The notes under the pieces: model-generated
What the model was told of the DNA's origin: nothing
What the model saw: only the letters and a program-made list of their open reading frames with translations
Databases searched by the model: none
Position numbers and translations under genes: made by a program
Source: an uncultured bacterium
Lineage (GTDB): Bacteria > Verrucomicrobiota > Kiritimatiellia > CAIKKV01 > CAIYGI01
Assembly: GCA_903925685.1 (NCBI GenBank)
Contig: CAIYGI010000096.1
Span: forward strand, 1-51,703
Length of the DNA stretch: 51,703 nucleotides
Direction: 5' to 3'
Shown: positions 1,425 through 26,458 of the stretch, one piece after another
Layout of the letters: every line of letters begins with the position of its first letter
Position numbering within the stretch: position 1 is the first letter of the stretch

Positions 1425-2979
1425 CACGAACGGCTCGCGAGGACGCTCGCCCTCCCTGGCGGGTTATTGTGACTCACGAGATGATTCCATGGGAGGGCGA
1501 GCGTCCTCGCGAGCCGCAACGCCGCGCGCGAGCCGCAGCGCACGCCGCGGGCAGACGATGATCTTCATCATCTTCGCCCTGGTCATCGGCGCCTTGCTGG
1601 TGCTCTTCAATGCCGATTTGCACCGGACCATCTTCGCCAAGTTCGTCAGCCAGAACGCCGGCGACAGCGCCGCGCTGGCCGCCGCGCGCTGGCAGGGCGC
1701 CACGCTCAACCTGATCGGCGACCTCAACGTGCTCAAGGCCGTCGCCGTCAGCCGCAACGACCCCGACACCGTCAACACGCTGACGGAACTTCAGAAACGT
1801 TTGAACTTCGTCGGGCCCATGGCCGGCCTCGTCGCCGCCCAGCAGGCCGCCAAAAACAACGGCATTTTCGACAATCCGGACTTCAAAAGAATACTACTAG
1901 AGCATGCCCAGGTCGTGCGCACGGAATATCCATCGAAAACCGATCCGAACAGCGGCCAGTTGCTTTTCCCCGAGCCGTGGATAGGCGCCTGGCGCGACTA
2001 TGCCGACATGATCGAGATGGTTGCAAACGACGGCGTGGCGGCGGCGCCCGACAACGCGCGCTACTACACGGACTTCACCGGCGGCCACATGCTGTTGCGC
2101 CTGGATTTTTACAACGCCGTCGCCAGTGCCGACTGGTGCTGGTTTCTACACCACGCCATGACTCTTTTGCGGACCTATCAGAATTACCATTCCTGGCCGC
2201 CGTTGCCGCCGCAAGTCACGCTCAACCATCCGGTTAATTGCGAATACTTCGGACTCGGCCTGGCTTGCGCCAGCGGCACCGTCTCAAAAGCAGACGGCAC
2301 CATCGATGCCATCAATGTTGCGCTTGACGAGCGCCGTCCCAGCGGCGTCAGGGAATCCGTCATCACCAACCAAACGCTGACTGCCGCCTGGTTCTGGTTC
2401 GATCCGGGCGCATGGACCGCGTGGTCCGGATTCTCGCCCGCCGACGGCGAAATATTCCCGGCCAAGGGCTCGATCAAGCCGCAGTACAATTATCTTGGGG
2501 CCGACTCCGTCGTTCGCATCCAGACGGAATTCGACCGCCTGACGCCCAGCGTCTCCAATGCCGCCATCACCTGGACCGCGGCGGCGAAGGCCTTCGGCTG
2601 CATGACCAACGACCAGGCCATGCTCGAACGCCCCGACACGCTCAGCCTCGTGCTGCCGGTTTTCTCCGAGGTGCGTCTTTTCCCCGTGGATGTCTCCACG
2701 GCGCCCGAAGGCGGCGCCTTCAACATCGCCTGGCGCGAACACATCGAAAAACACCTCACGGGCTGGACCGACTATCAAGGGTACCATTCCGGCTACGCGC
2801 AGTACGGCCCGGGCTTGCTCAATACGAGCTGCTTTTACTGCCGCCAACTGGTACGTTGGGAAGACCCGCTCTTTCGCGGAACAGGGATCCAGTGGCTGGC
2901 GCAACCGGGAAACGCCGCAAAATGCCAGCTTACCGGCGGCGGCGGCGGACCGGGCGGGGGCACGCATCGTGGACATTAA
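1414..2979 (+). CDS. TadG-like pilus assembly protein
   Basis: After an odd N-terminal leader, RRGQTMIF and a single transmembrane helix begin at about residue 46. The following segment (QNAGDSAALAAARWQGATLN) matches the post-helix region of TadG/TadE-like pilus proteins, and a periplasmic domain of about 430 residues with a Gly-rich tail ends the protein. ATG 1414 overlaps the previous stop (1422-1424) and has GAGGG upstream. With this start, residues 6-35 are encoded by a perfect 26-bp inverted repeat (1431-1516). An alternative start at ATG 1489, inside that repeat, would still keep the membrane anchor. The family is fairly secure; the exact start is not. Confidence 0.65.
   Translation: MDHNTNGSRGRSPSLAGYCDSRDDSMGGRASSRAATPRASRSARRGQTMIFIIFALVIGALLVLFNADLHRTIFAKFVSQNAGDSAALAAARWQGATLNLIGDLNVLKAVAVSRNDPDTVNTLTELQKRLNFVGPMAGLVAAQQAAKNNGIFDNPDFKRILLEHAQVVRTEYPSKTDPNSGQLLFPEPWIGAWRDYADMIEMVANDGVAAAPDNARYYTDFTGGHMLLRLDFYNAVASADWCWFLHHAMTLLRTYQNYHSWPPLPPQVTLNHPVNCEYFGLGLACASGTVSKADGTIDAINVALDERRPSGVRESVITNQTLTAAWFWFDPGAWTAWSGFSPADGEIFPAKGSIKPQYNYLGADSVVRIQTEFDRLTPSVSNAAITWTAAAKAFGCMTNDQAMLERPDTLSLVLPVFSEVRLFPVDVSTAPEGGAFNIAWREHIEKHLTGWTDYQGYHSGYAQYGPGLLNTSCFYCRQLVRWEDPLFRGTGIQWLAQPGNAAKCQLTGGGGGPGGGTHRGH
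1431..1516. repeat. BIME-like double REP hairpin inside the tadG-like gene
   Basis: Arms 1431-1456 and 1491-1516 are perfect 26-bp inverted repeats separated by 34 nt. Read outward, each arm is GGAG followed by a 20-nt imperfect hairpin with a TCCT loop, which is the head and foot layout of REP sequences; two inverted REPs make a BIME. The element lies within the N-terminal coding region of the TadG-like protein. Two elements of similar layout occur at 5600-5687 and 25626-25713. Confidence 0.75.
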
Positions 2980-2980
2980 T

Positions 2981-3631
2981 ATGAAGTCAGAAGTCAGAAG
3001 TCGGAAGTCAGAGGTCGGAGGTCGGAGATCGGAGATCGGCATCAATCGTCCGACCTCTGACCTCCGCCTTCCACCTTCCGCCCTCCGCCTTCCGACCTCC
3101 GACCTCCGACTTCTGACCTCCGACCTCCGACCTCCGACCTCCGACTCCCGGCACGGCCAGGCCATCATCGAACTGGTCGTCGGCCTGGTCGTGATGTTGA
3201 TCGTCTTTGCCGGTTTGCTGCAAATCGGCGGACTCAACCGTTTGCACACACGCACCATGATCGAAGCGCGCAGCGATGCCGCCAACCGCATGTTCTTCGG
3301 CGCCGCCACGCCCGATGCCCACTACATTCTCGATTGCACACCCGGACCGGACGGCCGCCGATATACCCGCGACGACGCGTTTGACACGGCCGCCGTGGGC
3401 AACTTTCAGGGCCATGTGCTGGCCTATGCCAAATTGATTCCGCTAGAGGGCGTCAGGCCCCACAATTCCATCAACAATTTGGACACCGATCCGACCGCCT
3501 TGGACCTGGTTCATGGACAACAGACTTACGCAACCAACCTCTATCCGATCATGCGCGATCTGGTTTACGGCACCAATTCCATTGACGTGCATTCCGATGT
3601 CTTCATGACCAGGATCGAGGGTTTGCCTTGA
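2981..3631 (+). CDS. TadE-like pseudopilin with a repeat-encoded N-terminus
   Basis: The recognisable part starts at about residue 60: RHGQAIIEL (prepilin-like, Glu at +5) followed by a transmembrane helix and a periplasmic domain of about 130 residues. The first 55 or so residues are a seven-residue-periodic peptide (motifs such as KSEVRSRKSEV and PTSDLRLL) translated straight through a heptamer DNA array at 2984-3146. ATG 2981 lies 2 nt after the previous stop, so translation is probably coupled. Whether the repeat-encoded leader is made, or initiation occurs further in, cannot be decided here. It is the third TadE/TadG-type pseudopilin in a row. Confidence 0.6.
   Translation: MKSEVRSRKSEVGGRRSEIGINRPTSDLRLPPSALRLPTSDLRLLTSDLRPPTSDSRHGQAIIELVVGLVVMLIVFAGLLQIGGLNRLHTRTMIEARSDAANRMFFGAATPDAHYILDCTPGPDGRRYTRDDAFDTAAVGNFQGHVLAYAKLIPLEGVRPHNSINNLDTDPTALDLVHGQQTYATNLYPIMRDLVYGTNSIDVHSDVFMTRIEGLP
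2984..3146. repeat. Heptamer arrays forming a large hairpin (GAAGTCR / CCTCCGA family)
   Basis: About eight consecutive 7-bp units of the GAAGTCA, GAGGTCG and GAGATCG kind run from 2984 to 3039. After a 9-nt gap, about fourteen reverse-complement units (TCCGACC, TCTGACC, TCCGCCT and similar) run to 3146. The arms can fold into a near-continuous stem of about 50 bp. No stop codon interrupts the coding frame, so the array is read as a seven-residue repeat in the TadE-like protein. Confidence 0.85.
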
Positions 3632-5221: not shown

Positions 5222-7029
<1,808 letters not shown>

Positions 7030-16105: not shown

Positions 16106-17286
16106 CCGTCCTGAAACAGACAGCGCAGGCGGAAGTTTCCGCGGCCGCGGAGCTGGACCCGGCGCAGTGCCCCTCCCCCAGTTTCGTGGTGGACGAGGCG
16201 CGGCTGAACGCCAACCTTGCGATTCTCGACGAGGTCCAGCGTCGCACGGGCGCCCGGGTGCTGCTGGCGCTGAAGGGCTTCGCCATGTGGCCGCTTTTTC
16301 CCGGCATCCGGCGCGTGCTGCACGGCGCGGCGGCCAGTTCGCTCCACGAGGCCCGCCTGGCGTCGGAAGAGTTCGGCGGCGAGCTTCACGCCTACGCTCC
16401 GGCCTTCCGCGACGACGAGTTCGACGCGCTGCTGGGCTATGCCGACCACCTGGTCTTCAACTCCTTTAGCCAGTGGGACCGCTTCAAGGACCGCGTGGCC
16501 CGCGCACCGCACCCGGTTTTGTGCGGGGTGCGCGTCAACGCGCGCCAGTCGGAGGTTAAAACCCCGCTCTACGATCCCAGCGCGCCGGGTTCGCGACTGG
16601 GAATCCCGGTGGAAGAATTCAGCGGCCGCAACCTGGACGGCATCACGGGGCTGCATGTGCATAATCTCTGCGAACTTGGCGCCGACGCGCTGGAACGGAC
16701 GCTGGCCGCCGTCGAACGCCAGTTCGGCGCGTGGCTGCCGCGGATGCAGTGGGTAAATTTCGGCGGCGGCCACCATATTACCCGCCCCGGCTACGATCTC
16801 GACCGCCTCTGCCGCATCATCGGCGATTTCAGGAAGCGCTATCCAATCCCGGTCTATCTGGAGCCCGGCGAAGCCGTGGCGCTGAACGCGGGCACGCTCG
16901 TGGCCTCCGTGCTCGACATCGTACACAACGCCATGGACATCGCGATCCTCGACACCTCGGCCGCCGCGCACATGCCCGACGTTCTGGAAATGCCCTATCG
17001 CCCGCAAATCGCCGGCGCCGGCGCGCCGGGGGAATTTCCGCACACCTATCGCCTGGGCGGCATGACCTGCCTGGCGGGCGACGTGATCGGCGACTATTCC
17101 TTCCCCGCTCCGCTGCAGCCCGGCATGCGCCTGGTGTTTCTCGACATGGCCCACTATACGATGGTCAAGACCACGATGTTCAACGGCGTCAACCTGCCGG
17201 CCATTTGCGTGCGCCGCGCGGAAACCGGACGCATCGAGGTGCTGCGCCGTTTCGGCTATGAGGACTACCGCGGACGGCTGGGCTGA
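16102..17286 (+). CDS. nspC: Carboxynorspermidine/carboxyspermidine decarboxylase
   Basis: NspC is a PLP enzyme that decarboxylates carboxy(nor)spermidine to (nor)spermidine in the alternative polyamine pathway. It has the alanine-racemase-like fold of group IV decarboxylases. Visible landmarks are the PLP lysine K58 in LLALKGFAMW, HVHNLCE, the phosphate-binding FGGGHHITRPGYD, YLEPGEAV, TCLAGD and DMAHYTMVKTTMFNGVNLP near the end. The 394-aa length is normal. ATG 16102 overlaps the nusG-like stop. The partner carboxy(nor)spermidine dehydrogenase is not in the window. A perfect heptamer array follows its stop. Confidence 0.93.
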   Translation: MTVLKQTAQAEVSAAAELDPAQCPSPSFVVDEARLNANLAILDEVQRRTGARVLLALKGFAMWPLFPGIRRVLHGAAASSLHEARLASEEFGGELHAYAPAFRDDEFDALLGYADHLVFNSFSQWDRFKDRVARAPHPVLCGVRVNARQSEVKTPLYDPSAPGSRLGIPVEEFSGRNLDGITGLHVHNLCELGADALERTLAAVERQFGAWLPRMQWVNFGGGHHITRPGYDLDRLCRIIGDFRKRYPIPVYLEPGEAVALNAGTLVASVLDIVHNAMDIAILDTSAAAHMPDVLEMPYRPQIAGAGAPGEFPHTYRLGGMTCLAGDVIGDYSFPAPLQPGMRLVFLDMAHYTMVKTTMFNGVNLPAICVRRAETGRIEVLRRFGYEDYRGRLG

Positions 17287-17294
17287 AGATGGTT

Positions 17295-17356
17295 GTTAGG
17301 TGTTAGGTGTTAGGTGTTAGGTGTTAGGTGTTAGGTGTTAGGTGTTAGGTGTTAGG
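17295..17356. repeat. Perfect heptamer array (GTTAGGT)8.9
   Basis: Eight identical GTTAGGT units plus six further bases run without a mismatch from 17295 to 17356. It fills the gap between convergent nspC and dapL, and the dapL stop codon (17352-17354, complement) lies inside the last unit. It is the only perfect array in the window, suggesting recent expansion. A short reverse-complement tail (CCTTAGG) follows at about 17361-17367. Confidence 0.95.
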
Positions 17357-18578
17357 AAAACCTTAGGTTCGCGCGCATTAGACGCGCTTCCATCTCGGCG
17401 ATCACGCGGTCGTCGTCTTTTTTGTCGCGCGACTCGAAGGTGGCTGAGAAGCGCAGGAAGGCGCCACTGTCGTCCCACGGCACGGTTGAGATCGAACTTT
17501 CACGGATCAGATGCTGGGAGGCATCCTCGGCCGTTTTGAACTCGACCAGGCCAGCGGCCTTGGGGGCCGGCACATAGAGATAAAATGTGCCGCCGGGCAT
17601 GCGCACTTTGAAGCCCACGCGCTTGAGCGCGGCCACGATTTTTTTCAGCCGGCGCTGGTAGTGTACGCGAATGTGGTCAGCCAGCTTGCGGTCGGCGATG
17701 CCCGCGCAGGCGGCGGCCTGGATGGCCTTGAACTGACCGGAATCAAGGTTGTCCTTGATCTCGGCGAAGGCCTGCACGATGCGCGCCGGCCCGGCCACGA
17801 AACCAAGCCGCCAGCCGGTCATGTTGTAGCTCTTGCTCATCGAGTGCAGCTCGATCGCGCACTCGCGGCCGCCCGGCCGGCTCAGGATCGAAAGCGGTTC
17901 GCGACCATAGACCAGCGTCGCATAGGCGGCGTCCTGCACGATCAGCAGATTGTAGCGCTGGGCGAAGGCGATCAGACGGTCGAAAAACTCCTCCGACGGC
18001 GCCGCGCCGGTGGGATTGTTGGGATAGTTGACGTAAAAGAGCTTGGCGCGCTGAGCAATGGCCGGGTCGATCTTTTCCAGATCGGGATAGAAATGATTTT
18101 CGCGGCGCAGCGGAACCTGGACCACCTCGCCGCCAAGATAGCGCGTGTGCGTGGCAAGCACGGGATATCCCGGCACGGTGACCAGCGCGACATCGCCGGG
18201 GTTGATGAAGCCCAGCGGCAGCAGCGCCAACGCGGACTTGGAGCCGATGCTGTGGTTGATCTCGGTGTCGGGATTCAAATCGCCGACCCCGAAAAAGGTC
18301 TTCATGTATTCCGCGGCGGCCAGTTTGAAGGCGCGCGGACCGTTGTCGGCATAACCGCGGTTGGCGGGATCGTCCACGGCCTTTTTGAGGGCCTGACGGA
18401 TGATTTTCGGGGCCATCTGGTCCGGTTCCCCGACGCCGAAATCGAGCAGTTCGACCTCCGGCCGGGCGGCGCGAGCCGCGGACTTGGCGCGTTTAATCTT
18501 CTCGAATTTGTAAATTTCGTTGGCAACGCCAAATCCGGCGCCACCGATGCGGTTCGCGAACAGTTTTTGCAGATCCAT
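17352..18578 (-). CDS. dapL: LL-diaminopimelate aminotransferase
   Basis: DapL converts tetrahydrodipicolinate directly to LL-diaminopimelate in lysine and peptidoglycan synthesis, bypassing the succinylase/acetylase steps; the route occurs in plants, chlamydiae and many PVC bacteria. The 408-aa fold-type I PLP protein shows LDFGVGEPDQ at 45-54, NYPNNPTGA at about 184-192, the PLP lysine K249 in SMSKSYNMTGWRLGF and a C-terminal Arg region (LRFSATFE). The start MDLQKLFANR (18578) has GGGAG about 10 nt upstream and fits the family; upstream extensions do not. The stop lies inside the GTTAGGT array, so array changes could alter its last residues. Confidence 0.93.
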   Translation of the reverse strand: MDLQKLFANRIGGAGFGVANEIYKFEKIKRAKSAARAARPEVELLDFGVGEPDQMAPKIIRQALKKAVDDPANRGYADNGPRAFKLAAAEYMKTFFGVGDLNPDTEINHSIGSKSALALLPLGFINPGDVALVTVPGYPVLATHTRYLGGEVVQVPLRRENHFYPDLEKIDPAIAQRAKLFYVNYPNNPTGAAPSEEFFDRLIAFAQRYNLLIVQDAAYATLVYGREPLSILSRPGGRECAIELHSMSKSYNMTGWRLGFVAGPARIVQAFAEIKDNLDSGQFKAIQAAACAGIADRKLADHIRVHYQRRLKKIVAALKRVGFKVRMPGGTFYLYVPAPKAAGLVEFKTAEDASQHLIRESSISTVPWDDSGAFLRFSATFESRDKKDDDRVIAEMEARLMRANLRFS

Positions 18579-24442: not shown

Positions 24443-26458
24443 TCAGCCGTCGCGCAACGTTTCGGCGGGCGGCAGGCGGGCGGCGACGCTGGCTGGCGAC
24501 CATGCTGCTAGCGCCCCGAGCACGAGACCGGCGAGGAGAGGCAATAGCCAGACCGCCGTCGTGATGACAAAGGGCACCGGACCGAGTTGCGAAAGCAAAC
24601 GCGCGGCGGGCAACGCCAGGAGCAGTCCAAAGCCGGCCGCGGCGGCGGTCAGCAGGCAGGCCTCTGTCACAAAAAGCGCGGCAATCGCGCCGCGCCCGGC
24701 GCCGAGCGCGCGGCGCAAACCAATCTCCAGCGTGCGGTCGCGCACACTGGCGCCGAGCAGTGTCGCCAGCAATGCCGCGCCAAGAAACAAACCGAACCCC
24801 GCCGCGCCGCCGGCCAGCAGGCCGACGTTGCGTTGCAGCCGGCGCAGGCCGGCAAGCAGCATCTCGGGCGTCGTGGCCGCAAGCGCGCCAGCGCGCAGAT
24901 CGGGCTGACGCAGCAGCGCCAGCGCGGCGGCGGCCGTATGCGCCGGCCCGCGCGGTCCGCGCACCAGCAGCATGTCGAGCCGCGCATCGGCCACCGGCCA
25001 GGCGGCCAGCGGCACAACCAACAGCCCTTCGGCGCCTCCGTCCGCGGCGGCGCCATCGTCGGGCAAGCTCCCGACCAGCGTAAAAACCTGGCCGCCGATG
25101 GAAATCGCCGCGCCCGGCCGCCAGCCATTGCGGGCGCAGGCGGCGGCGCTGACGACGGCGCAGCGGGCGCCATCAAGTTCGTCCGCGCCGTCAAGCAGAC
25201 GTCCGGCGACGGGCCGCCAGCCGCGTATTTCGGCGAGCGCGGGCGATGCGGCAAGCGCGGTGAGTTTCGTTCCGTCGCCGCCCGGGGTCGGAGTGAAGCG
25301 GCGCACGCCGGCCATACACCATGCGGGAAAATTCCGGCTCAGACAGCGCAGATGCGCCTCGGTCAACAGCCCGCCGCCGCTTGCCCGCTCCCCGGCCGGC
25401 ACGATGGCGACCACCTCCGCGCCCAGTTCGGTCTGTAGCGTGCGCGCCGCGGCGCGCAGTCCGGACAAGGCGGCCAGCAGCAGCGTCAGCACCGCGAATC
25501 CGGCCGCCAGCGCGCCCAGCACCAACAGCATGCGGCCGGGACGCAGCGTGAGCCCTTCGGCCAGGTCGCGCAGGGCGGGGCGGACGGTTACCAGTGGGTG
25601 AATTTCGAGGTTTTCGCAAACATACGGCGGACGACACGGAGGTCGTCCCTCCATTGTCGAAAACAAATCGTTTTCTCCGTCTTCTGGAGGGCCGGGCTCC
25701 GTCCCGGCCGTTCTTGCTTTGGAAACCGGGATGGCGTCTTGCTCGACGCAACCGTCGCGGCAGCGCAGGTGGCGGGTGGCGATCTTGAGCAGGGCTTCGT
25801 TATGCGTCACCATTACGATGGTCAGGCCGTCGGCGTGCAGCCGCCGGAAAATATCCAATACTTGTTCCGCGGCGGCATGGTCGAGATTGCCGGTGGGTTC
25901 ATCGGCCAGCAGCAGTCGCGGCGGATGGGCGATGGCGCGGGCGATCGCCACGCGCTGCATTTCGCCGGCCGAGAGCAGACGCGCGCGGCGGTTGGCCTGT
26001 TCCGCGAGACCGACCGATTCCAGCGCGGCCAGCGCGCGCGCGCGCGCCGCATGGCGCGGGACAGGCAGATAGCGGAAGCGGAACAGCACATTCTCCAGCG
26101 CCGTGCGATGCGGCAGCAGACAGAAGCGCTGGAAGACCATGCCCAGCCGCGCCGCGCGCCAGGCGTTGCGCTGAGCTTCGGTCAGGGCATCGGTGGCCTG
26201 GCCGTCGAACCACAGACGGCCCGCGGTCGGCGTATCGAGCAGCGCCAGCAGGTTTAGCAGCGTCGTCTTGCCCGCGCCGGAGGGACCGGTGAGCAGCACG
26301 AATTCGCCGGGCATCACGTCAAAAGAAGCCTCGCGCAGGGCCGCCACCGGTCCGCCAAGCGCCGGAAATGCGCGGGCGACGTGGGTCAGACGAAGAATGG
26401 GAAGACGGAGGTCGGAGGTCGGAAGTCCGAGATCGGAGGTCGAAGGGAGTGCGGTCAT
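24443..26458 (-). CDS. MacB-like ABC transporter: ATPase fused to FtsX-type permease
   Basis: Residues about 20-240 form an ABC ATPase of the MacB/LolD group: Walker A GPSGAGKT at 58-65, signature LSAGE (usually LSGGE) at 162-166, Walker B LLLADEPTGNLD at 182-193 and the switch His at about 219. The rest is a permease with one transmembrane helix (about 305-330), a periplasmic domain and three C-terminal helices, like MacB. MacB works with a MacA adaptor and TolC to export peptides, lipids or antibiotics; matching adaptor and TolC-like genes lie at 31051-33839, beyond an accessory island. The first 20 residues are encoded by a heptamer array and the linker at about 247-277 by a BIME-like repeat, so the true start is uncertain. 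Confidence 0.8.
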   Translation of the reverse strand: MTALPSTSDLGLPTSDLRLPILRLTHVARAFPALGGPVAALREASFDVMPGEFVLLTGPSGAGKTTLLNLLALLDTPTAGRLWFDGQATDALTEAQRNAWRAARLGMVFQRFCLLPHRTALENVLFRFRYLPVPRHAARARALAALESVGLAEQANRRARLLSAGEMQRVAIARAIAHPPRLLLADEPTGNLDHAAAEQVLDIFRRLHADGLTIVMVTHNEALLKIATRHLRCRDGCVEQDAIPVSKARTAGTEPGPPEDGENDLFSTMEGRPPCRPPYVCENLEIHPLVTVRPALRDLAEGLTLRPGRMLLVLGALAAGFAVLTLLLAALSGLRAAARTLQTELGAEVVAIVPAGERASGGGLLTEAHLRCLSRNFPAWCMAGVRRFTPTPGGDGTKLTALAASPALAEIRGWRPVAGRLLDGADELDGARCAVVSAAACARNGWRPGAAISIGGQVFTLVGSLPDDGAAADGGAEGLLVVPLAAWPVADARLDMLLVRGPRGPAHTAAAALALLRQPDLRAGALAATTPEMLLAGLRRLQRNVGLLAGGAAGFGLFLGAALLATLLGASVRDRTLEIGLRRALGAGRGAIAALFVTEACLLTAAAAGFGLLLALPAARLLSQLGPVPFVITTAVWLLPLLAGLVLGALAAWSPASVAARLPPAETLRDG
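25626..25713. repeat. BIME-like double-hairpin element (copy B) within the macB-like gene
   Basis: This is the homologue of the 88-bp segment at 5600-5687 (76 of 88 identical). The left REP is a perfect 7-bp stem (GGACGAC/GTCGTCC) with loop ACGGAG. The right REP is GGAG, stem GGCCGGG, loop CTCCGT, stem CCCGGCC. The two loops are exact complements, so loop-loop pairing is possible. It encodes a linker between the ATPase and permease and lies in the opposite orientation to its gene compared with copy A. Confidence 0.8.

Follow-up and report, generated by a model that had tools for sequence, protein, structure and literature searches.

A probable GGAG-tagged REP dimer lying in frame near the start of a TadG-like gene

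The window, by which we mean the whole stretch of 51,703 nucleotides that was analysed, carries genes of a tad pilus locus near its left end. The product of an open reading frame on the plus strand (1414–2979) matches the Pfam family Tad (TadE/G-like) at 22.4 bits against a cut-off of 22.3, i.e. just at the cut-off; an earlier note on this DNA had taken the product for a pseudopilin, which this match does not bear out, and we refer to the gene as TadG-like. A TadE-like gene on the same strand (771–1424; Pfam TadE) lies directly upstream and overlaps the TadG-like start by 11 nt, a gene with weak Flp/Fap pilin and class III signal matches (below the cut-offs) also precedes the TadG-like gene, and an RcpC/CpaB gene is found further downstream. 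The next gene (ORF 2690–3631) bears heptamer-like repeats with inverted halves (GTCGGAG / CTCCGAC; 2983–3147), in frame in its N-terminal tail and just ahead of its hydrophobic segment; a same-genus relative has a tail that is related to, yet different from, this one.

Within the TadG-like gene lies a perfect inverted repeat of 86 bp (1431–1516), composed of two 26-nt arms (1431–1456 and 1491–1516) that are complementary at 26 of 26 positions (100%) and a 34-nt spacer (1457–1490). Each arm consists of GGAG followed by GGCGAGCG-TCCT-CGCGAGCC, where TCCT is the loop and the stem of 8 positions holds 6 Watson-Crick pairs and a central tandem G.A/A.G mismatch. The left unit reads GGGAGGGCGAGCGTCCTCGCGAGCCG on the minus strand and the right unit has the same sequence in inverted orientation on the plus strand, so that both GGAG tags face inward, as in a tail-to-tail REP dimer (REPIN layout). 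Comparison of the arms confirmed the 26-bp perfect inverted repeat with REP layout and TCCT-loop hairpins that had been reported here; the short hairpin of each arm is present, with the refinement that its stem is imperfect. A tetranucleotide tag directly 5' of a short hairpin, which is a feature of REP/REPIN elements, occurs in both arms, the tag being GGAG and not GTAG. RNA folding of 1414–1560 gave −89.2 kcal/mol as compared to a shuffle mean of −58.9 (z −7.0; 0 of 200 shuffles were as stable). Matches of the element to Rfam were all far below gathering scores, and we rejected a known Rfam RNA family as its identity. The 24-nt arm has no stop codon in any of the six frames, which is not by itself surprising given its GC content.

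At up to 3 mismatches, the 51.7-kb window holds no further copy of the arm, and shuffled controls likewise gave 0. Two other dimers of GGAG-tagged hairpins (~5598–5687 and 25624–25713) have inward tags, CTCCGT loops and different stems, and represent a second REP family in the window; the likeness in layout that had been noted between these 88-bp elements and the repeat studied here therefore extends to tags and loop-bearing hairpins, and not to the stems. A tandem array of TGTTAGG repeats occupies 17280–17363.

The element lies in frame across codons 6–35 of the TadG-like gene. It had been described as lying across the start region, and it does fall within the N-terminal codons; the start codon itself is not covered, the element beginning at nucleotide 18 of the ORF. 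The insert encodes ~30 extra residues, mostly arginine-rich, in the N-terminal tail that precedes the membrane segment; if translated, it is predicted to yield the peptides SRGRSPSLAGYCDSR and GRASSR and the N-terminal stretch SRGRSPSLAG... Reading of the sequence and the ORF also reveals an in-frame ATG at the border of spacer and right arm (1489–1491, plus strand; MGGRASSRA...), a possible internal start.

A genome of the same genus, G001, has an orthologue of the TadG-like gene (79% identity from residue 39 on) that lacks the element: its N-terminus is MFHNISKNSPPNARRGQTM, as compared to MDHNTNG...SARRGQTM in the window, a net in-frame difference of 90 nt. G001 keeps the start ATG, the GAGG in front of it and the overlap of 11 nt with the upstream gene. 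Inspection of relatives had been proposed as a check: the encoded peptide, whose conservation would have told against the note's reading, is absent from the closest homologue. The net insertion of 90 nt exceeds the 86-nt element, and at the window copy no target-site duplication can be seen flush with the arms; a pair of near-tandem 20-nt repeats (75% identical; 1508–1546, plus strand) at and beyond the right edge blurs the junction, whose exact position is therefore uncertain. Among the orthologues whose N-terminus was readable by automatic reading (9 of 30 loci, the window's own included), the N-terminal tails vary and are short in L065, L070 and L081. Over 473 codons aligned with G001, dN is 0.13 and dS is 0.53; these values show constraint on the TadG-like gene, over a period that may lie mostly before the insertion.

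Positions 1421–1526, searched against the draft genome that contains the window (G000), gave 35 matches, which group into 15 places at E<=0.005 when the window is included and weaker matches at C12, C84 and C148 are dropped; the arm itself has 16 matches at up to 2 mismatches. Five of the 15 copies are cut by contig ends, so the true copy number is probably above 15. The genome-wide search for further copies that had been suggested as a check has therefore found them. Several of the other copies have a common 34-nt spacer. The window spacer is of the same length and identical to it at 17 of 34 positions, a level reached by 85 of 20000 composition shuffles (either orientation), so that kinship of the two is likely, not certain. 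In most other own-genome copies the likeness continues past the arms into the flanks; this is not so in the window copy. Several copies, among them the one at ~2753–2838 of L038 (G000:C87), form the middle of a longer composite that has terminal inverted repeats of its own (AAATCCTCGCCTAA... / ...GTGAGGATTTGG). At L032 (G000:C63; 1250–1275 and 3425–3450) and L033 (G000:C29; 195–220), arm copies continue inward into a common 33-nt sequence, inverted, and look as if they bound a longer element that is not assembled there.

The same arm is found well beyond this genome. The 25-mer occurs at up to 2 mismatches in 14 of 58 genomes, own included (control 0), and the 24-nt arm at up to 1 mismatch in 51 of 288 genomes of the class (reversed-pattern control 0), with the highest copy number in G250 (299 arm matches). 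The exact 25-mer is present in 89 stretches of the genome collection; 80 of these, for which taxa were obtained, are mostly MAGs titled Kiritimatiellae, Lentisphaerae or Verrucomicrobia, and include as outliers one Puniceicoccaceae, one Phycisphaerae and one Fimbriimonadaceae MAG, which could stem from mis-binning. That an arm family should appear almost unchanged across so wide a range of MAGs is an unusual point. Arms occur singly and in head-to-head, head-to-tail and tail-to-tail order: in G012 tail-to-tail dimers dominate (15 of 20 sites) and their spacers vary, and in G022 arms are mostly single or head-to-head (tail-to-tail at 0 of 19 sites). Several arm scans used a fuzzy-match setting able to skip sites, which makes their absences weak; the counts relied on here were redone by plain mismatch counting.

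In other genomes, the arm is associated with genes for RAYT transposases. A RAYT ORF in G186:C206 lies between two exact arms, at distances of 68 and 111 bp; its score of 72.5 bits against NF047646 (REP-associated tyrosine transposase) falls slightly short of the cut-off of 80, and homologues of it occur in 121 of 288 genomes at E<=1e-10. Among 70 scanned RAYT loci (30 fetched by search and 40 chosen, partly because arms had been seen nearby), 7 have an arm, allowing up to 3 mismatches, either in the RAYT match or no more than 250 bp from it (L347, which is the query's own locus, L381, L388, L393, L394, L395 and L402); the same scan with 50 shuffled arms found 0. In G235 (L394), the RAYT gene lies between dimers whose tags point inward. 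In a RAYT tree, whose labels predate the addition of L393 (not in the tree), the 6 arm-flanked rows of 67 do not group as one clade: there are 4 label changes, a count that 5 of 500 shuffles matched or undercut; the idea of one RAYT clade for one arm is thus not supported.

The own genome, a draft that is 96% complete and in 347 contigs, has no match to the G186:C206 RAYT at E<=1. Its two Y1_Tnp matches, a fragment and a protein of ~340 aa, are both unlike that RAYT, and we rejected them as mobiliser: no arm was found beside them in a fuzzy-match scan, which is a weak absence. Genome-wide presence of Y1_Tnp was uninformative as to which genomes carry the arm: Y1_Tnp occurs in 47 of 58, and PF01797 under-detects this RAYT group (21.8 bits, cut-off 23). 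Around several RAYT or Y1_Tnp genes (L322 in G104:C21, L330 and L331 in G250, and L317 in G106) lie GGAG or GTAG hairpins that belong to other families; several REP families thus coexist in the class.

Elements of this general type are in print. Tagged REPs in the PVC group, with tail-to-tail dimers, variable spacers and RAYT association, are described by Di Nocera et al. (2013; PMC3733652), as are in-frame intragenic REPs, which among GTAG repeats are most numerous in Opitutus terrae (Verrucomicrobia). Going by the available portion of that paper, our element resembles these REPs in its tetranucleotide tag beside a short, sometimes imperfect hairpin, its dimers, its in-frame copies and its RAYT link, and differs in the tag: the variants given are GYAG, GYRG, GTRG, GTMG and GTGG, and GGAG has 0 matches in the available text. 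We therefore consider the GGAG family new; it is set apart from the 24 families of PMC3733652 by text, as far as available, and may coincide with one of them. Searches for papers on the encoded peptides and 20 nt of the arm found none, and searches on palindromic repeats and RAYTs of Verrucomicrobia, Kiritimatiella and Lentisphaerae found nothing on this family beyond PMC3733652. We accordingly file the family as new within the known REP/RAYT type, that paper describing the type in its available text. The REPINs of Pseudomonas fluorescens (Bertels and Rainey, 2011; PMC3116915, available in part) are alike in having two inverted REPs and a spacer that fold into one long hairpin, a spacer less conserved than the arms, and RAYT proximity; unlike the window copy, which lies inside a gene and in frame, they are reported from extragenic space. 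This location is usual for REPs and REPINs and is not a defining feature, since in-frame REPs have been published. Rickettsia palindromic elements, as summarised in the available part of PMC3733652, likewise insert in frame into protein genes with the frame running through the repeat; they are CGTC-tagged or longer, and the likeness is one of description.

Together, the repeat is real and mostly explained: it is very probably a tail-to-tail REP dimer of a GGAG-tagged REP family, moved by a RAYT and inserted into the TadG-like gene. Membership in the REP/REPIN type is supported by the tag and hairpin, the many copies, the inverted doublet and, in other genomes, RAYT genes with the arm at their flanks; cleavage and joining of the single strand by its RAYT is a candidate mechanism. 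The proposal that the repeat is a mobile element is likewise upheld by its many copies, the empty site in the relative and the RAYTs flanked by the same arm elsewhere. RAYT, a Y1 HUH transposase, would move copies of the family as folded single strands, as the anatomy of the element and the REP/RAYT literature suggest (PMC8266576, PMC3116915; both available in part). In E. coli, the GTAG motif and a stem mismatch matter, and GGAG and the G.A mismatch may play these roles here. The window copy would have inserted just past the start codon after the split from the same-genus relative, or else been lost there; we infer the direction. An arm free of stops in all six frames and a net gain of 90 nt would have kept the TadG-like gene open, and the insert, if translated, would now lengthen an N-terminal tail that varies among orthologues. 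The insertion may have been near-neutral, and tolerance is plausible because the tail is arginine-rich, lies ahead of the hydrophobic segment and is variable. Against this explanation stand the missing RAYT match in the own draft, GGAG in place of the canonical GTAG, G022 with its lack of tail-to-tail pairs, the failure of the arm-flanked RAYTs to group as one clade, and the small share of orthologue loci (9 of 30) with a readable N-terminus.

Perfect 26-bp terminal inverted repeats on an 86-bp unit would also suit a MITE moved in trans by a DDE-type insertion-sequence transposase, for which Correia/NEMIS elements are the comparison. Many own-genome copies do lie in a longer composite whose flanks are inverted repeats as well, and the net insertion of 90 nt (86 + 4) could include a 4-bp duplication. 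However, the same arm also occurs singly and in every relative orientation, it flanks RAYT genes, spacers vary where arms stay constant, and the window copy shows no flush target-site duplication; we regard a MITE as quite unlikely. The repeat might instead be an RNA hairpin built into the tad operon and kept by selection for control of translation or for mRNA processing, and its great stability, its place inside the operon and its start at nucleotide 18 of the ORF fit such a role. Yet the hairpin is missing in the same-genus relative, its arm recurs at unrelated genome places, Rfam scores are far below gathering, and predicted folding shows no masking of the start region: comparing the element with its in-silico deletion, mean unpaired probability is 0.30 versus 0.38 at the Shine-Dalgarno region and 0.62 versus 0.75 at the ATG, a small change. 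Control of translation, which the earlier note had raised, thus found no support, and a selected regulatory hairpin seems very unlikely. An effect of the element on elongation or RNase III cleavage is possible; it is speculation that RNase III could act on the perfect stem of 26 bp.

A further alternative concerns only where translation begins: were the element part of an untranslated leader, with translation from 1489 or later, its left half would encode no peptide. The in-frame ATG at 1489 allows this, and many N-terminal REPs have been argued to be extragenic for such a reason (PMC3733652, available part). Conservation of the ATG at 1414, the GAGG and the upstream-gene overlap in a relative without the element argues against it and makes it rather improbable. 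With the REP dimer as the preferred reading, the REP/RAYT world extends to a family whose sequence is nearly identical in MAGs of Kiritimatiellae, Lentisphaerae and Verrucomicrobia, the window and G001 form a clean pair of filled and empty sites for an in-frame insertion into a pilus gene, and G186:C206 offers biochemistry a concrete RAYT with exact flanking arms.

Arms also lie in frame in other coding sequences. Of 16 long arm-spanning ORFs, chosen for length from 78 listed and their like, 15 have a Pfam domain in the arm's frame, with the arm outside the domain in most. Sequence comparison points to three clear cases: a BioA-like aminotransferase (L125), in which ~28 residues replace 2 between two well-aligned halves; a ProRS-like enzyme (L138), with the arm at residues 430–437 in a change-tolerant region; and a kinase (L121), with the arm at residues 104–112, inside Pkinase 8–236. 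The copies of G250 were set aside as examples, being mostly short frames in composite repeats. A more tentative idea, which we hold to be possible and on balance doubtful, is that this near-invariant 24-nt hairpin has spread through PVC bacteria partly via its tolerance inside coding sequence, including, repeatedly, one loop of its own transposase, and so would work as a natural mutagen by peptide insertion, extending the loops and tails of host proteins such as those of the tad pilus. Annotators should note that peptides like GGRASSRA or GRASVLASR in proteins of PVC bacteria can derive from the repeat.

At L388, L394 and L402 the RAYT match itself contains arms, which is an unusual point. Here (L388, 1331–1864; L394, 1073–1585; L402, 934–1539) the arm is in frame within the RAYT and in about the same loop (~residue 100). 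The RAYT of L402 has an array of five arms; in its protein, A(R)(V/A)DARPP-type peptides stand in an array between the two conserved halves.
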